DNA from: Geothrix sp. 21YS21S-4 | GTDB lineage: Bacteria > Acidobacteriota > Holophagae > Holophagales > Holophagaceae | Assembly (NCBI RefSeq): GCF_030845995.1 | Contig: NZ_CP132719.1 | Span: forward strand, 1 to 64,000 | Direction of reading: 5' to 3' | DNA length: 64,000 nt | Shown: piece by piece, positions 31,369 to 42,311 of the stretch | Layout: each line of letters opens with the position of its first letter | Position numbering within the stretch: the first letter of the stretch is position 1 | Notes under the pieces: model-generated | Databases searched by the model: none | What the model was told of the DNA's origin: nothing | The model's input: the letters and a program-made list of their open reading frames with translations, nothing else | Program-made: the position numbers and the translations under genes

Positions 31369-32460
31369 ATGCGTCTCGGCCCCCTCCAGCAGCACTTCCG
31401 GTCGCGCCTGCGGAAGCGGACGCCCTGGGCGGTCGTCCTGGTGTTCGCGGCCGTCTTCATCGGCCTCCAGTTCGTGGTGGTCCCCGCGGGGCTCCAGGCG
31501 CGCCATTCCGGCACCCTGGCCAACGCCCTGCTCACGCCCTTCCTGGTGTCCTTCGCGTACGGCTTCCTGTCCCCCCTGCCCTGGCGGTGGAGCGGGGACG
31601 ACCGGCCGCGCGCGCCCTTCGGACGGGGGTTGGTCCAGGCGCTGGTGTTCAACTCCGCCGTGATCCTGCTGCTGACGGCCCTGAGCTGGCTGCTGGTGCG
31701 GAACGCCAGCCTCAAGGCCGAGGCGCTGGGTCTGGCTCGGGGCGCGAAGGTCGGCCTGGGCAGCGTGGTCCTGGTCCAGCTCCTGGCCGGCACCCCCCTC
31801 ATGACCATCATCGGGGCGATCATCTCCTTCGCGGTCATCACGGAGGAGGAGAAGGCCGCCGCCGAGGCCCGCCTGGAGGAAGCCCAGTGGGTCCTCCTTC
31901 GCGGCCAGTTGAGTCCTCACGTCCTGTTCAACTCCCTGAACGGGCTGGCGGAGCTGGTCCGCCAGGATCCCGCGGCGGCGGAGCAGGGGATCCTCGATCT
32001 GTCGGAGCTGTACCGGGCGCTCCTCCGCCACGGCGACCGGCCCAAGGCGCCCCTGGGCGAGGAGCGGGCCCTGGTGCAGCGCTTCCTGGCGGTGGAGCAG
32101 CTCCGCCTGGGCACCCGCCTCGCCGTGCGCTGGGAATGGGACGAGGCTCTGGACGGGATCGAAGCCCCGCCCTTCCTCCTTCAGCCCCTGGTGGAAAACG
32201 CCCTGAAACACGGCATCGCGCCCCATCCCGGCGGCGGGGAGATCGTCATCTCCCTCCGGCGGGAGGGCGCCGGCCTCCGCCTTCGCGTCGTGAACACCGG
32301 CCGGGGGATGGGGCTCGTCCCGGGGACCGGCGTGGGAATCCAGAACCTGGAGGCGCGCCTGGCCCTGGCCTATGGCTCCCAGGCCCGGTTCCACCTGCGG
32401 CCCGAGGGGAGCGCCACCCTCGCTGAAGTGGCGCTGGAGCGCCTGGAGACCCGCCGATGA
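31369..32460 (+). CDS. LytS/YehU-type sensor histidine kinase
   Basis: 363 residues from the ATG at 31369. The N-terminal half has about four membrane segments (WAVVLVFAAVFIGLQFVVV, LLTPFLVSFAYGFL, LVFNSAVILLLTALSWLLV, LMTIIGAIISFAVI). The kinase part is of the His_kinase family: QLSPHVLFNSLNGLAEL carries the phosphorylated histidine, PFLLQPLVENALKHGI the N box and GVGIQNLEARLALAYG the G box. Its stop overlaps the next gene, a LytTR response regulator. The sensed signal is unknown; there is no separate periplasmic domain. Confidence 0.92.
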   Translation: MRLGPLQQHFRSRLRKRTPWAVVLVFAAVFIGLQFVVVPAGLQARHSGTLANALLTPFLVSFAYGFLSPLPWRWSGDDRPRAPFGRGLVQALVFNSAVILLLTALSWLLVRNASLKAEALGLARGAKVGLGSVVLVQLLAGTPLMTIIGAIISFAVITEEEKAAAEARLEEAQWVLLRGQLSPHVLFNSLNGLAELVRQDPAAAEQGILDLSELYRALLRHGDRPKAPLGEERALVQRFLAVEQLRLGTRLAVRWEWDEALDGIEAPPFLLQPLVENALKHGIAPHPGGGEIVISLRREGAGLRLRVVNTGRGMGLVPGTGVGIQNLEARLALAYGSQARFHLRPEGSATLAEVALERLETRR

Positions 32461-33182
32461 AACCGCTCCGCGTGGCCCTCGCCGACGACGAACCCCTGGC
32501 CCGGGCGCGGCTGGCCCGCCTCCTGCGCGAGGCCGGCTGCGACGTGCGCGCGGAACTGGCGGATGGGGCGGCGGTGCTGGCCTGGCTGCGCGAGTCCCAC
32601 GACGTGGAGGCCTTCTTCCTGGACATCCAGATGCCCGGTGCGACGGGGCTTGAAGTGGCGGCGGAACTGGCGGAGGGCCGACCCGGGCTGCCGGTGGTGT
32701 TCGTGACCGCCCACTCGGAACACGCGGTCCGCGCCTTCGAGGCTGCCGCCGCGGACTACATCCTGAAGCCGGTCTCCGCCGACCGCCTGGAAAAGACCCT
32801 GGTCCGGCTGCGGGAAGGCGCCGGCCGGCGGGGCGAAGGGCCCGGCGGAGCGGTGCCGCGGTTTCCGGTCCGGGCGGGCGAAGGCCACGTGTTCCTGGAC
32901 CTGCGGCGCACCAGCCATTTCGAGGTGGAGGAAGAGGTGGTGTGGGCCTGGGCCGCCGGGAGCCGCCACCGCACGTCCTGGACCACCCTGGCGGAGGTGG
33001 AGGCGGCCTTCCCGGGGATCGAGCTGATCCGGATTCAGCGGCATCTCCTCCTGCGCCCGGAATCCGTCCTGGGGCTCCGTCCCCTGGAGGGGGGCCGCGT
33101 GTCGGTCCGCGTGGGGGAAGGGGTGGATCTGGAAGTGAGCCGCAGCGTCACGCCGCGGCTGAAGGAGCGCCTGGGCCTCTGA
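32457..33182 (+). CDS. LytTR-family response regulator
   Basis: 241 residues, overlapping the kinase gene by four bases. A receiver domain (acidic residues Asp10-Asp11, phosphoacceptor Asp56 in FFLDIQMPG, Lys in ILKPV) is joined by a Gly/Arg-rich linker to a LytTR-type DNA-binding domain with WTTLAEVEAAFPG and IRIQRHLLLRPESV. The latter has the family pattern, though the usual HRSxLVN reads QRHLLLR. Such regulators bind direct repeats upstream of target genes, and targets are often adjacent. None is evident here. Confidence 0.9.
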   Translation: MKPLRVALADDEPLARARLARLLREAGCDVRAELADGAAVLAWLRESHDVEAFFLDIQMPGATGLEVAAELAEGRPGLPVVFVTAHSEHAVRAFEAAAADYILKPVSADRLEKTLVRLREGAGRRGEGPGGAVPRFPVRAGEGHVFLDLRRTSHFEVEEEVVWAWAAGSRHRTSWTTLAEVEAAFPGIELIRIQRHLLLRPESVLGLRPLEGGRVSVRVGEGVDLEVSRSVTPRLKERLGL

Positions 33183-33226
33183 CCCGCCCCGGAGTGCGCT
33201 AGCCTCTTGGGCAACCGGACGATCCT

Positions 33227-34621
33227 TTGGCCGAGCCCCCCTTCATTCGCCTGTCGCGCCGCGGCGCCTCGCCGGCCACGGTGGGCGGCGCGCGCATCGC
33301 GGTCATGTACGCGCTGGCGTCCGGCCTCTGGATCCTGGTGTCCGACCGCCTGCTGGAGGCGATGGTCCCGGACGCGGCGCGGCGGATCAGCGTGGGGATC
33401 CTCAAGGGCTGGGCCTTCGTGATCCTGACGGCCATCATCCTGTTCCTGATGGTGAGGCGGCTGCTGGGCCAGGCCGTGAACCGGGAGACCCGCCTCCACA
33501 CCCTCATCCACGCCATCCCCGACCTGGTGTGGGTGAAGGACGCGGACGGCCTCTATCAGGCCTGCAACCAGGCCTGCGAGCGGTTCTTCGGGGCGAAGGA
33601 GGCGGACATCCTGGGCCGGCGCGACGAGGATTTCATTCCGCCGGAGCTGGCGGACACCTTTCGCCGGAAGGATCGGGAAGCCATCCTGGCGGACGGCCCC
33701 ACGGTGGAGGAGACCTGGGTGACGTTCCCCCATTCGGGCGAACGGGTGCTCCTGGAGACCCTGCGCACGCCCCTTCGGAGGGGCACCGCCGTCACGGGCG
33801 TGCTGGGGATCAGCCGGGACATCACCGTCCAGGACAGCCACATCCGCGAGCGGGCCCGCCTCGAAGGCCAGCTGCACCAGGCCCAGAAGATGGAGACCGT
33901 GGGCCGGTTCGCGGGCGGGATCGCCCACGACTACAACAACATGCTGGGCGTGATCCTGGCGAACGCCGATCTGGCGCTCTACCAGATGGCCGCGGACCGC
34001 CCCGAGCGGAAATACCTGGAGGACATCGCCAAGGCCGCCCGCCATTCCGCCGAGCTGACGGGCCAGATGCTGGCCTTCGCCCGGCAGGAGCCCGCCCATC
34101 CCGTGGAGGTGGACCTGGAGCGGGCGGTCGAAGGACTTCTGGGCGTCCTGGGCGGCCTGGTGGGAGCGCGCATCGAGGTGAGGTGGCGGCCCCAGGCCGG
34201 GCTGTGGCCCGTGCGAGTGGACCCCACGCAGTTGGAGCGGGTGATCACCAACCTGGTGGTCAACGCCCGCGACGCGATCCCGGGGGAGGGGCGGATCGGG
34301 CTGACGGCGCGCAACGTGGCTCTGACGCCGAAGGAGGCTTCCGCCTGGGAAGGCGCCGAGCCGGGCGACTACGCGATGGTGGAGGTGGCCGATTCCGGCA
34401 GCGGGATGGCGCCGGAAGTGCTGCCCCACATCTTCGAGCCGTTCTTCACGACCAAGTCCCGGGGCAAGGGCACCGGCCTGGGCCTCGCCCTGGTCCACAG
34501 CATCGTGAAGCAGAACCGCGGGGCCATCCGGGTGGAAAGCGAGCCCGACCGCGGCACGACCTTCCGGATCCTGCTGCCCCGGGACCGGGCCGCCGAGGGT
34601 CCGGGCGAGCCTATTTCCTGA
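33227..34621 (+). CDS. PAS-domain sensor histidine kinase (NtrB-like)
   Basis: 464 residues from a TTG start with no strong ribosome-binding site; the ATG at 33305 is an alternative. Two membrane segments near residues 25-45 and 60-80 are followed by a PAS domain (LHTLIHAIPDLVWVKDADGLYQACN). The dimerisation domain has KMETVGRFAGGIAHDYNNMLGVIL with the phosphorylated His. The ATPase domain has NLVVNARDAI, DSGSGM and TGLGLALVHSIVKQ. No receiver or regulator gene is adjacent, so it is an orphan kinase in this window. Its last 11 bases overlap the converging rseP gene. Confidence 0.88.
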   Translation: MAEPPFIRLSRRGASPATVGGARIAVMYALASGLWILVSDRLLEAMVPDAARRISVGILKGWAFVILTAIILFLMVRRLLGQAVNRETRLHTLIHAIPDLVWVKDADGLYQACNQACERFFGAKEADILGRRDEDFIPPELADTFRRKDREAILADGPTVEETWVTFPHSGERVLLETLRTPLRRGTAVTGVLGISRDITVQDSHIRERARLEGQLHQAQKMETVGRFAGGIAHDYNNMLGVILANADLALYQMAADRPERKYLEDIAKAARHSAELTGQMLAFARQEPAHPVEVDLERAVEGLLGVLGGLVGARIEVRWRPQAGLWPVRVDPTQLERVITNLVVNARDAIPGEGRIGLTARNVALTPKEASAWEGAEPGDYAMVEVADSGSGMAPEVLPHIFEPFFTTKSRGKGTGLGLALVHSIVKQNRGAIRVESEPDRGTTFRILLPRDRAAEGPGEPIS

Positions 34622-38785: not shown

Positions 38786-41170
38786 ATGGTTCAGTTCAAC
38801 ACCCGAGCGAACGAGATCCTCCTCAAACTGGTCTATTACGGACCGGGTCTCTCGGGTAAAACGACGAACCTGAAATCGCTTCACGCCATGTGCGCGGAAG
38901 CGCACCGCGGCGAGATGTTCTCCGTCAATACGCAGGAGGACCGCACCCTTTTCTTCGACCTGCTGCCCATCAATCTGGGCTACATCTACGGCAACGCGAT
39001 CCACCTCCAGATCTACACCGTGCCGGGCCAGGTCCAGTACGACGCCAGCCGGCGCGTGGTCCTGGGCGGCGCCGACGGCGTGGTGTTCGTGGCGGATTCC
39101 AGCGAAACCAAGATGCAGGACAACGTCGACTCGCTGTCGAACCTGTACCACAACCTCAATGCCAACCGCCTGAACATCAAGCAGATCCCCTTCGTCATCC
39201 AGTACAACAAGCGGGACCTGTCCGACGCGATGCCGGTGGGCGTCATGAACCGGCGATTGAATTTCCGCAGCGTCCCCTACTTCGAATCCGTAGCCAACCG
39301 CGGAACGGGCGTCCTCGACACGTTCCTGTCCATCACCCGCGAGACGGTGGGCTACACCTTCCGCAAGTACCACCTCGACAAGAAGATCAAGGACTTCGAC
39401 GAGATGCTGAATCTCATCGAGTCCAATGTCCGCTCCAGCATGCGGGAGCTGCCTCCGCCTCCCGAAACGGAACCGGAAACCGCCCCCGACACCACCATCC
39501 TCCGCCACAGCAACGTCAGCGTGGCGGACCTGGTGCCCGGCAAGGTCGCCGATGCCCAGGAGCTGCTGGAGGACGCCCTCAAATCCAACATGGAGACCGC
39601 GCGGCTCTATTCGGAGCTGAAGGAGAGCAAGGACGCCCTGGAGAAGAAGAACCAGGAGCTGGGCCAGCTCTACACCCAGCTGGAGCGCGCGAACCAGGAC
39701 AACCTCAAGACGCGGAAGTACCTGGAGGGCCTCATCCAGAACATGGGCGAGGCGGTGATCTCGTTCTCCGCGGATGCCAAGATCCTGACCTGGAACGCCG
39801 CCGCCGAGCGGATCTTCGGCTATTCGCGGCCGGAGATCGTGGGCCGCAGCATGGCCCAGCTCACGCCCGACCACCTGGTGGGCGAACTGGAGCAGGTGAT
39901 CCAGCAGACGATCCGCGGGCAGGTGGTGCGCGACATGCCGACCATCCGCCTGCGCAAGGGCGGGATCGCGTTCCCCGCGAGCATTACCTTCGCTCCCGTC
40001 AGGGGCGCCGACGACCGCGTGGTTGCCTTCTCGGCCCTGGTCCGGGACGCCACCGAGACCCGCGCCCTGGAGGACCGGCTGGTCCATGCCCAGCGGCACG
40101 AGGCCCTGGGCCGGCTCGTTCCCTCCCTTTTTCACGAAGCCGCCAACCGCCTGACGCCGGTTCTGGTCGAAGGCCGGCTGCTGGCCGAATCCGCCCTGGA
40201 GCCCCACCAGGCGGAACAGGCGGCCCGTCTCGTGAAGGCCGTGGATTCGGTCCAGGATCTTCTGCGGCCCCTGCAGACCGTCCTGAATCCCCCCACCCCG
40301 CAGCGCACGGCCACGCAGCTCAACCGCCTCGTGGAAGAGGCTGCGGCCCTGGTGGCGCTCCAGGCCCGAAGCGCGGACGTGGACATCGAACTGAACCTCG
40401 AGCCCAGCCTGCCGGAGACCGCCCTCGACGCCGGCCTCGTCCTGCTGTCGCTCACCAATCTGCTGCTGAACGGGATCCGCACTGCGGCCTTAGCGCCGGT
40501 GAAGCGGCTCCGGGTGGCCACGCGGGCGACGGGCGACGGGCTCCAACTGGTGGTCCAGGATTCCGGGGAGCCGCTCTCCGAGGCGCGCCAGGCCGAAGTG
40601 TTCGATCCCGCCGCCTCGCCCACGGCCGAGGCGCTCGGGCTGCCGGTGGCCGACATCATCGCCCGGCAGCATGGTGGCCGGCTCACCGTCCGCAGCCAGG
40701 AGGGCGTGGGAAACGCCTTCCTGCTGGAACTTCCTCTGGAGGCGGCGCCCGTGGGGGCCCCTGCGCCAATCTCCGCCGGCGGAGGCCTGGCGGGCCGAAG
40801 GGCCCTGGTGGTGGACGACGAGGCCTTCCTGCTGGAATGCCTGGTGGACGCCCTCGAATCCTGGGGCCTGGAGGTGGTGTCCAGCTCCCGCGGAGAAGAG
40901 GCCGTCGAGGAGCTTCAGCGGGGAAGCTTCGACGTGATCGTATCGGACATCCGCATGCCCGGCCTGTCGGGGATGGACCTGTACGAATGGCTGCAGGCCA
41001 ACGCGCCCGCCATGGCCCGGCGGATCCTCTACACCACCGGCGATTCCTTCGACGTGAAGACCCGCGGCTTCCTCGAGAGCACCCAGGTCCCCTACCTGGG
41101 TAAACCTTTCGATCTAAAGCAGCTCCGACAAAGTCTGGAGCGCCTGGTAGAGCTTCCGGTCGAAGCGTGA
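38786..41170 (+). CDS. MglA-type GTPase fused to PAS, histidine kinase and receiver domains
   Basis: 794 residues from the ATG at 38786; longer frames to 38477 are not protein-like. Residues 1-195 are a full MglA-class small GTPase: P-loop GPGLSGKT (19-26), TVPGQVQY (79-85) with the PGQ typical of MglA, and NKRD (141-144). A Pro/Glu linker and a coiled coil (about 250-310) lead to a PAS domain (about 312-420). The kinase domain has His450 in LFHEAANRLTP and an N box (NLLLNGIRTA), but its G boxes are degenerate: DSGEPLS, and LGLPVADII for GxGLG. A receiver domain with Asp721 in VSDIRMPG ends it. It probably couples GTPase state to phosphorelay signalling, perhaps in motility or polarity. Confidence 0.9.
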   Translation: MVQFNTRANEILLKLVYYGPGLSGKTTNLKSLHAMCAEAHRGEMFSVNTQEDRTLFFDLLPINLGYIYGNAIHLQIYTVPGQVQYDASRRVVLGGADGVVFVADSSETKMQDNVDSLSNLYHNLNANRLNIKQIPFVIQYNKRDLSDAMPVGVMNRRLNFRSVPYFESVANRGTGVLDTFLSITRETVGYTFRKYHLDKKIKDFDEMLNLIESNVRSSMRELPPPPETEPETAPDTTILRHSNVSVADLVPGKVADAQELLEDALKSNMETARLYSELKESKDALEKKNQELGQLYTQLERANQDNLKTRKYLEGLIQNMGEAVISFSADAKILTWNAAAERIFGYSRPEIVGRSMAQLTPDHLVGELEQVIQQTIRGQVVRDMPTIRLRKGGIAFPASITFAPVRGADDRVVAFSALVRDATETRALEDRLVHAQRHEALGRLVPSLFHEAANRLTPVLVEGRLLAESALEPHQAEQAARLVKAVDSVQDLLRPLQTVLNPPTPQRTATQLNRLVEEAAALVALQARSADVDIELNLEPSLPETALDAGLVLLSLTNLLLNGIRTAALAPVKRLRVATRATGDGLQLVVQDSGEPLSEARQAEVFDPAASPTAEALGLPVADIIARQHGGRLTVRSQEGVGNAFLLELPLEAAPVGAPAPISAGGGLAGRRALVVDDEAFLLECLVDALESWGLEVVSSSRGEEAVEELQRGSFDVIVSDIRMPGLSGMDLYEWLQANAPAMARRILYTTGDSFDVKTRGFLESTQVPYLGKPFDLKQLRQSLERLVELPVEA

Positions 41171-41216: not shown

Positions 41217-42311
41217 ATGCAGCGCCGTTGGATCTTGGCAGTCATCGTCGGATCGGGCCTCGCGGCCCAGACGCCCCTTCCTCCGCCGGCTCCCGAGCCC
41301 GTGCAGGCTCCGGAGCCGGTTCAGGCCACGCCGCAGGCCGAGCCTCCTGCTCCGAAAGTGGAGGAGCCCAGCGCCCCCAAATCCTTCGACCAGCTCCGCC
41401 CCAGCCAGCGGAAGTTCGCGTACTCCCTCCACCGCACGGCCCTCGCCGCCCATGAACTGGGCTACTACCGCAGCCACCCCAAGGCGGTGGAAGTGCGCGA
41501 CGCGCTGCAGGCCCTGGTGGACGCGCAGGCCGGGCTGCCCGAAAAGGCGCGGGGCGGCGTCCCGGCGGCGGAGGCCTACCTGGCGCGCCTCCGGGCGAAT
41601 CATGGGCTATACGGCGCGGACGGGAAGAAGCTCCTGTTCGACGGCAACTGGAAGGCGCTTCAGGCCTCCGCCCGCGCCGCCGCCAAGGCCGGGGCGCCTG
41701 GGCTGGAAGGCCGCCTCTTGAAGGTGAAGGGCCTCCTGACGGATCCCAAGGTCGACGCCGCGGCGCCCTCCTGGGCCGAGCCTGCGCCCGCCCGGAAGGG
41801 CCGCAAGACCAAGCCCGTGCGGGTGCCGGATGGCTTCGGGGAGCAGAAGGCGGTGCTGACGCTGTGGGTCCGCCGCGCCCAGGCCTGGATCGGCAACGTG
41901 CCGCAGGAAGCGGACGTGAACGGCGAGCGCAAGTCCCGGCGCGCGGCGGACCCGGCTCCGGCGAAGGTCCTGGGCGACCTGGTCGCGTGGTTGGGGAAGG
42001 ATGATCTGGATCTGCTCCGCGATCCGGGCTTCGCGTGGTTCGACCTCCGCTACCTCGGCGCCGAGCCCGGAAAAGAATTCCTCGCCCACGCTTCCGATAT
42101 CGTCGCGGGCAAGGCCCCCGAAGGCGCGCCCGGGGAACTGATCCTGATTCCGGCCCTGGACCCGGTGATGGGCGAGAGCCGGTTCGGCTCGGGCGAGGAG
42201 AAGCGTCCGGTTCTGGCGGAAGTGAAGCAGGGCGCCCCGGCGTCCAGCGTCGCAGCCCAGATGGCGACCTTCGAGAAGGCGGGCCGCAGCCGGGAGATCG
42301 AGGTCAAGTAG
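41217..42311 (+). CDS. Exported protein of unknown function, faint dipeptidyl-peptidase III-like region
   Basis: 364 residues from the ATG at 41217 (GAGGAG upstream). An N-terminal hydrophobic signal-like stretch (RRWILAVIVGSGLAAQTP) is followed by a Pro/Glu/Ala-rich linker (about 20-60). The rest is helical. Segments such as FDQLRPSQRKFAYSLHRTALAAHEL and AYLARLRANHGLYGADGKKLL recall the N-terminal part of M49 dipeptidyl-peptidases, but the HExxxH zinc motif is absent, so no peptidase activity is claimed. The C-terminus ends SREIEVK. It is followed by a terminator shared with the converging regulator gene. Confidence 0.6.
   Translation: MQRRWILAVIVGSGLAAQTPLPPPAPEPVQAPEPVQATPQAEPPAPKVEEPSAPKSFDQLRPSQRKFAYSLHRTALAAHELGYYRSHPKAVEVRDALQALVDAQAGLPEKARGGVPAAEAYLARLRANHGLYGADGKKLLFDGNWKALQASARAAAKAGAPGLEGRLLKVKGLLTDPKVDAAAPSWAEPAPARKGRKTKPVRVPDGFGEQKAVLTLWVRRAQAWIGNVPQEADVNGERKSRRAADPAPAKVLGDLVAWLGKDDLDLLRDPGFAWFDLRYLGAEPGKEFLAHASDIVAGKAPEGAPGELILIPALDPVMGESRFGSGEEKRPVLAEVKQGAPASSVAAQMATFEKAGRSREIEVK

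Follow-up and report, generated by a model that had tools for sequence, protein, structure and literature searches.

The locus analyzed here raises the question of whether a GTPase of the MglA type and a PAS-histidine kinase-receiver chain are truly parts of one protein and, if so, in which direction a signal would pass between them. At 38786-41170 (+) of the window (by which we mean the whole 64,000-nucleotide stretch of Geothrix sp. 21YS21S-4 DNA that was analyzed) there is a single open frame of 794 aa, and the MglA-PAS-kinase fold-receiver chain that the initial annotation described in that frame is confirmed by Pfam matches, by the match of the G domain to solved MglA structures and by the helices of an AF2 model, one of them the probable coiled coil. 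The ATG at 38786 is supported as the start, orthologs opening with MVQFNT. Our class-wide search took in 93 genomes, 77 of them from the family of the window protein (Holophagaceae; the named relatives are Geothrix and other Holophagaceae), and in 56 of these 77 the orthologs align from residue 1 to at least residue 784 in one open frame; there is therefore no frameshift. Where Holophagaceae loci are long enough to show it, the gene mostly lies at a conserved position, divergent from uppS-cdsA-dxr-rseP. The idea that two genes had been joined by a frame error or by chance, the former being what the initial annotation named as undoing its reading, found no support and was rejected as next to impossible, there being one frame in 56 family genomes at one locus. 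The architecture is real and conserved across one bacterial family, the Holophagaceae. The further suspicion, that it might prove common and already characterized, was half right: it is common within the family, but we found no description of it in the literature. The gene and its immediate neighbors are as follows.

38786..41170, + strand: whole gene, MglA-helix-PAS-putative pseudo histidine kinase-receiver, 794 aa
37791..38477, - strand: uppS, which opens the divergent uppS-cdsA-dxr-rseP cluster and marks the conserved locus by synteny in Holophagaceae loci
41217..42311, + strand: downstream gene without Pfam match, 46 bases past the stop, perhaps a co-transcribed partner

The downstream gene, which may be co-transcribed with the fused gene, is found in most Geothrix-clade loci at 49-62% identity and is absent from several other genera; its product is probably an exported protein with a Pro-rich start. 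We note that 4 kb upstream, at 32457-34621 (+), a LytTR response regulator adjoins a PAS histidine kinase that keeps all its boxes, and that the fused receiver may have this kinase as its partner. We also note that a metagenome-assembled genome titled Deltaproteobacteria (L065, JAIFMW010000027.1) carries the Holophagaceae version of the gene with the same downstream neighbors, and its title is probably wrong.

Within the fused gene we distinguish the following parts.

38786..39355, + strand: MglA-class G domain, residues 1-190 (PDB MglA match, E 2.7e-53; residues invariant in orthologs)
39356..39550, + strand: linker, residues 191-255, partly disordered (low pLDDT; 72% mean pairwise identity)
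39554..39742, + strand: long helix and probable coiled coil, residues 257-319, running into the PAS domain (AF2 helix H257-319; 82% mean pairwise identity)
39722..40048, + strand: PAS domain, residues 313-421 (Pfam PAS, E 5.2e-14)
40052..40285, + strand: DHp two-helix region, residues 423-500, with the H450 codon at 40133-40135 (AF2 helices)
40301..40750, + strand: HATPase_c (CA) fold with degenerate ATP site, residues 506-655 (Pfam, E 9.5e-12 over 556-652)
40559-40573, + strand: G1 box of the CA fold, DSGEP, degenerate
40625-40642, + strand: G2 box of the CA fold, AEALGL, degenerate
40805..41137, + strand: receiver domain, residues 674-784, with phospho-acceptor D721 at 40946-40948 (Pfam, E 1.7e-18)

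The G domain is complete and of the MglA class, as had been claimed. In an HMM scan that puts the PAS, HATPase_c and receiver domains well over the cut-off, its Ras/Arf matches are weak and barely over it, and it is the comparison with solved structures that places it firmly: for residues 5-185 the best match is M. xanthus MglA (PDB 6h17, E 2.7e-53), followed by a second gliding protein MglA (3t12, E 2.2e-49). Its motifs, GPGLSGKT(T), D52-R53-T54 (DRT), TVPGQ (Q82) and NKRD (141-144), satisfy the Group 1 MglA set of a GxxxxGKT P-loop, an Arg finger beside the G2 Thr, a G3 PGQ and a G4 NKxD, and G19, K25, T26, D52, R53, T54, Q82, N141, K142 and D144 are invariant in the orthologs. AF2 models the MglA domain with a pLDDT of only ~25-35, because the 37 alignment rows are nearly identical there, and the domain arrangement was not read from that model. 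The HATPase fold and the receiver are well modelled, the former at a pLDDT of ~90. The best family scores are to PAS hybrid histidine kinases of the EspA/EspC, AtoS and FixL type, and Foldseek matched PAS-histidine kinase structures, with DivL (4q20) lower in the list. Two DHp helices (423-468 and 474-500) are predicted, and an H-box, HEAANRL, is present with H450 as the phospho-acceptor His; Pfam HisKA gave no scoring match in the window protein. The ATP-site boxes of a catalytic kinase, G1 DxGxG and G2 GxGLG, are not matched, DSGEP and AEALGL standing in their place, whereas the receiver has its full residue set: two acidic residues (D677, D678), the acceptor D721, T750 and K773.

The pattern of conservation across orthologs bears on which of these parts is likely to be chemically active. 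By mean pairwise identity the MglA domain is the most conserved (92%), followed by the helix (82%), the PAS domain (68%) and the receiver (67%), with the kinase core least conserved (DHp 53%, CA 50%). The degeneracy of the kinase G boxes had been remarked on from the single sequence and holds in every ortholog examined: neither the second Gly of DxGxG nor the first Gly of GxGLG occurs in any of the 57. By contrast, an ordinary kinase nearby, at 33227, retains H, N, DSGSG and GTGLGL. The receiver residues D677, D678, D721, T750 and K773 are invariant in all 52 orthologs that have a receiver. Position 450 is H in 40 of the 57 orthologs, N in 12 and D or T in five. H450 is kept throughout the Geothrix clade in an HE-NRLTP setting, which suggests a chemical role for it there. 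In a tree of residues 1-655 the His-less family sequences form one branch of 17 (support 100), of which 12 have a receiver and the five receiver-less ones are the sister group of those 12. Since H450 is lost yet the receiver kept in 12 sequences, the function of the receiver in these proteins is independent of autophosphorylation.

Shorter relatives indicate which parts can be dispensed with. Within the Holophagaceae, the receiver is missing in all five genomes of genus g169; genus g7 has MglA-PAS or shorter forms, the same locus being shown in one genome (G292); and the fused gene is absent from genus g5, whose genomes are ~1 Mb. Of two other families in the class, f2 has proteins of 406-413 aa made up of MglA-PAS alone, and f3 (7 of 7) has MglA-PAS-kinase fold and no receiver. 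The f3 DHp has no recognizable H-box, with a His near the site in at most one protein, and the GxGLGL box is missing from its G2 region, though DNGxG persists in most. As g7 and f2 keep MglA-PAS without the kinase, the N-terminal half functions without it.

The reading that we prefer, at about even confidence, is that the protein is a one-chain switch that takes its phosphate input at the receiver and gives its output through the MglA-type GTPase. The loss of the ATP boxes in 57 of 57 orthologs, the loss of the acceptor His on one branch and the unchanging residues of the receiver and GTPase together point to receiver input and GTPase output, and make the direction originally suggested, in which the GTPase state gates phosphosignalling in cis, the less likely one. 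The kinase part is probably a pseudokinase scaffold: its fold is kept (the CA domain is modelled with confidence and DivL is among the fold matches) while its ATP site is not intact, and the related PAS-kinase part of f3 likewise has no recognizable H-box or GxGLGL box. Against this it must be set that ATP binding persists in some histidine kinases whose boxes diverge, that the kept H450 of the Geothrix clade suggests a chemical role there, and that in f3 and in the five g169 genomes the GTPase part also exists without a receiver. Beyond the domain anatomy, the mechanism is what we infer. The DHp/CA pseudokinase would dimerize the protein and dock its own receiver, much as DivL works with DivK; D721 would receive its phosphate from another kinase or from a small phosphodonor; and the altered receiver-DHp contact, together with the PAS signal, would be transmitted along the long helix to reach the G domains, whose nucleotide cycle or effector access would change. 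In Geothrix, phosphate may also pass between D721 and the retained H450. By analogy with other Group 1 MglA proteins, the GTP-bound G domain would probably have a polar machine or a type IV pilus machine as its target. The genome has six T2SSE-type ATPase matches, including an adjacent pair at 792703-794884, and these are consistent with the presence of type IV pili.

The kept His leaves room for another role, that of Spo0B-like phosphotransfer. The Geothrix DHp would then be a hub through which the attached receiver exchanges phosphate with a second receiver or an HPt, under the control of the GTP state of MglA. The presence of H450 in all 40 members of the His-bearing group, nearly always in the HE-NRLTP context and in spite of the lost ATP boxes, speaks for such a hub, as does the intact receiver; but the sister genera have N in place of H and yet keep receiver and GTPase, so phosphotransfer cannot be the general function, and we think it unlikely to be the explanation. 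The model of the initial annotation, in which an active kinase, or a phosphatase, would be turned on and off in cis by the GTPase state and phosphate would carry the output, we consider decidedly unlikely for the window protein: G1 and G2 are broken as in all 57 orthologs, no other part is as weakly conserved as the kinase, and one branch does without the acceptor His. Phosphatase activity is nonetheless within reach of a degenerate CA domain, and elsewhere in the phylum there are MglA-GAF-histidine kinases with all boxes intact, for which this direction may hold. Finally, the C-terminal half could be mainly a localization or dimerization tail, with the GTPase acting alone and the kinase-receiver part decaying, a view to which the kinase-less g7 and f2 proteins and the receiver-less g169 proteins lend something. 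It seems to us improbable, for decay would not spare a receiver whose active site is invariant in 52 of 52 and which is better conserved than the kinase.

It had been observed that no mglB-like gene adjoins the fused gene, and a search of the 3.08-Mb genome for mglB/Roadblock genes bears this out. Of its four MglA genes only one has an adjacent Robl_LC7 (MglB) gene, and this sole Robl_LC7 gene, at 2658225-2658494, lies beside a different, stand-alone mglA; a normal mglA-mglB pair therefore exists besides the fused gene, and the idea of an adjacent or alternative MglB for the latter was rejected. Two further MglA genes, L003 (G000:C1:2565538-2566095) and L004 (G000:C1:1970401-1970961), encode C-terminal extensions of ~100-220 residues with no identified domain, and extensions of this kind are widespread among the MglA proteins of Acidobacteriota. 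The premise that MglA is normally stand-alone therefore needs qualifying for this phylum, where long C-terminal extensions, including that of MglA-GAF-histidine kinases, are common.

A domain-architecture search, for which long MglA proteins of other Acidobacteriota were fetched and then scanned, returned MglA-GAF-HisKA-HATPase or close variants in at least nine families (f2, f3, f5, f8, f18, f26, f35, f45 and f76, the f35 member being placed by a local HMM only). The order MglA, then sensor and kinase, is thus found beyond the Holophagaceae, but with GAF instead of PAS and no receiver. Six of these proteins (L087, L090, L096, L098, L099 and L103) have recognizable H, N, G1 and G2 boxes and, on their motifs, would be stronger candidates for a kinase gated by its GTPase than the window protein is; the other examined members are partly or heavily degenerate in these boxes. 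In a G-domain tree the PAS series is one clade (100/99) that groups with the kinase-fused MglAs at weak support (62/86), while the stand-alone MglAs, that of M. xanthus included, fall outside. The PAS series has HEAANRLTP as its H-box where the GAF kinases have the SHELRTPLT type, and this difference suggests separate fusions of PAS and GAF kinases to MglA. We note that the kinase-like C-terminus of the f39 MglA proteins (L089:1610-3190 (-) and L100:556-2160 (+)) is vestigial, apparently another case of kinase decay, and that L102 (G012:C17) encodes in one frame of 848 aa an MglA followed by GAF, PAS and a long tail with no assigned domain. No such fusion was found in the one Gemmatimonadota and one Bacteroidota genome searched. 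A literature search, in which subscription papers lay mostly outside coverage, found nothing relevant on MglA fused to a histidine kinase and nothing on Geothrix plus MglA.

Several known systems share parts of this design. The main published survey of prokaryotic small GTPases, by Wuichet and Sogaard-Andersen, left out proteins of more than 240 aa (PMC4316618), and at 794 aa the window protein exceeds this single-domain limit. It resembles the Group 1 proteins MglA and SofG of that survey in 181 alignable G-domain residues, the P-loop, the intrinsic Arg finger beside the G2 Thr, TVPGQ and NKxD, but it carries 600 more fused residues, its G domain falls outside the branch of stand-alone MglAs, and it is not coupled to mglB, a coupling that is usual, though not universal, for Group 1 MglA. 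In Myxococcus xanthus, RomR is a receiver protein that acts on the MglA GTPase and in which the state of the Asp matters (PMC3441718). RomR is a separate protein with an N-terminal receiver and a RomR-C region and has no kinase or PAS domain, whereas the receiver of the window protein is C-terminal, in the same chain as MglA, and followed by no further region. The conservons, actinobacterial G protein systems CvnA-D, pair a histidine kinase with an MglA-like GTPase within a single signalling unit (PMC13343842, PMC4316618), but as separate proteins, with an MglB-like CvnB, a CvnA8 that autophosphorylates on His, Group 2 GTPases without the Arg finger, and no receiver; we found no operon of separate CvnA, CvnB, CvnC and CvnD adjacent to the fused gene. 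DivL of Caulobacter, described as a pseudokinase (PMC4853435), offers the likeness of a dead histidine kinase working with a receiver (DivK), but it regulates the kinase CckA and has no GTPase, whereas the window protein has receiver and GTPase in cis. PAS hybrid histidine kinases have the same PAS-DHp-CA(-receiver) order, but the window protein differs from them in its broken ATP boxes and its N-terminal MglA. The GAF proteins of other Acidobacteriota (L087-L104) come close in following MglA with sensor and kinase; they differ in their SHELRTPLT-type boxes and often intact kinase, and are probably a separate fusion event.

Work on Myxococcus polarity and on conservons, systems built of separate parts, has left open how phosphorylation of a receiver reaches a Ras-like GTPase. 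In the fused protein these parts are physically joined, so the coupling could be assayed on one purified protein, and the MglA-GAF-kinase proteins, in which the same switch carries kinases that look active in some cases and dead in others, form a natural series. We put forward tentatively, as something short of probable, that Acidobacteriota have a class of one-piece hybrid switches combining a Ras-like GTPase with two-component signalling, and that in the Holophagaceae the kinase has become a dead scaffold on which a phosphorylated receiver would set the state of MglA in the same chain, a task that elsewhere falls to the separate proteins RomR, MglA and MglB. Phosphate signals could in this way control a polarity-type GTPase within one protein.
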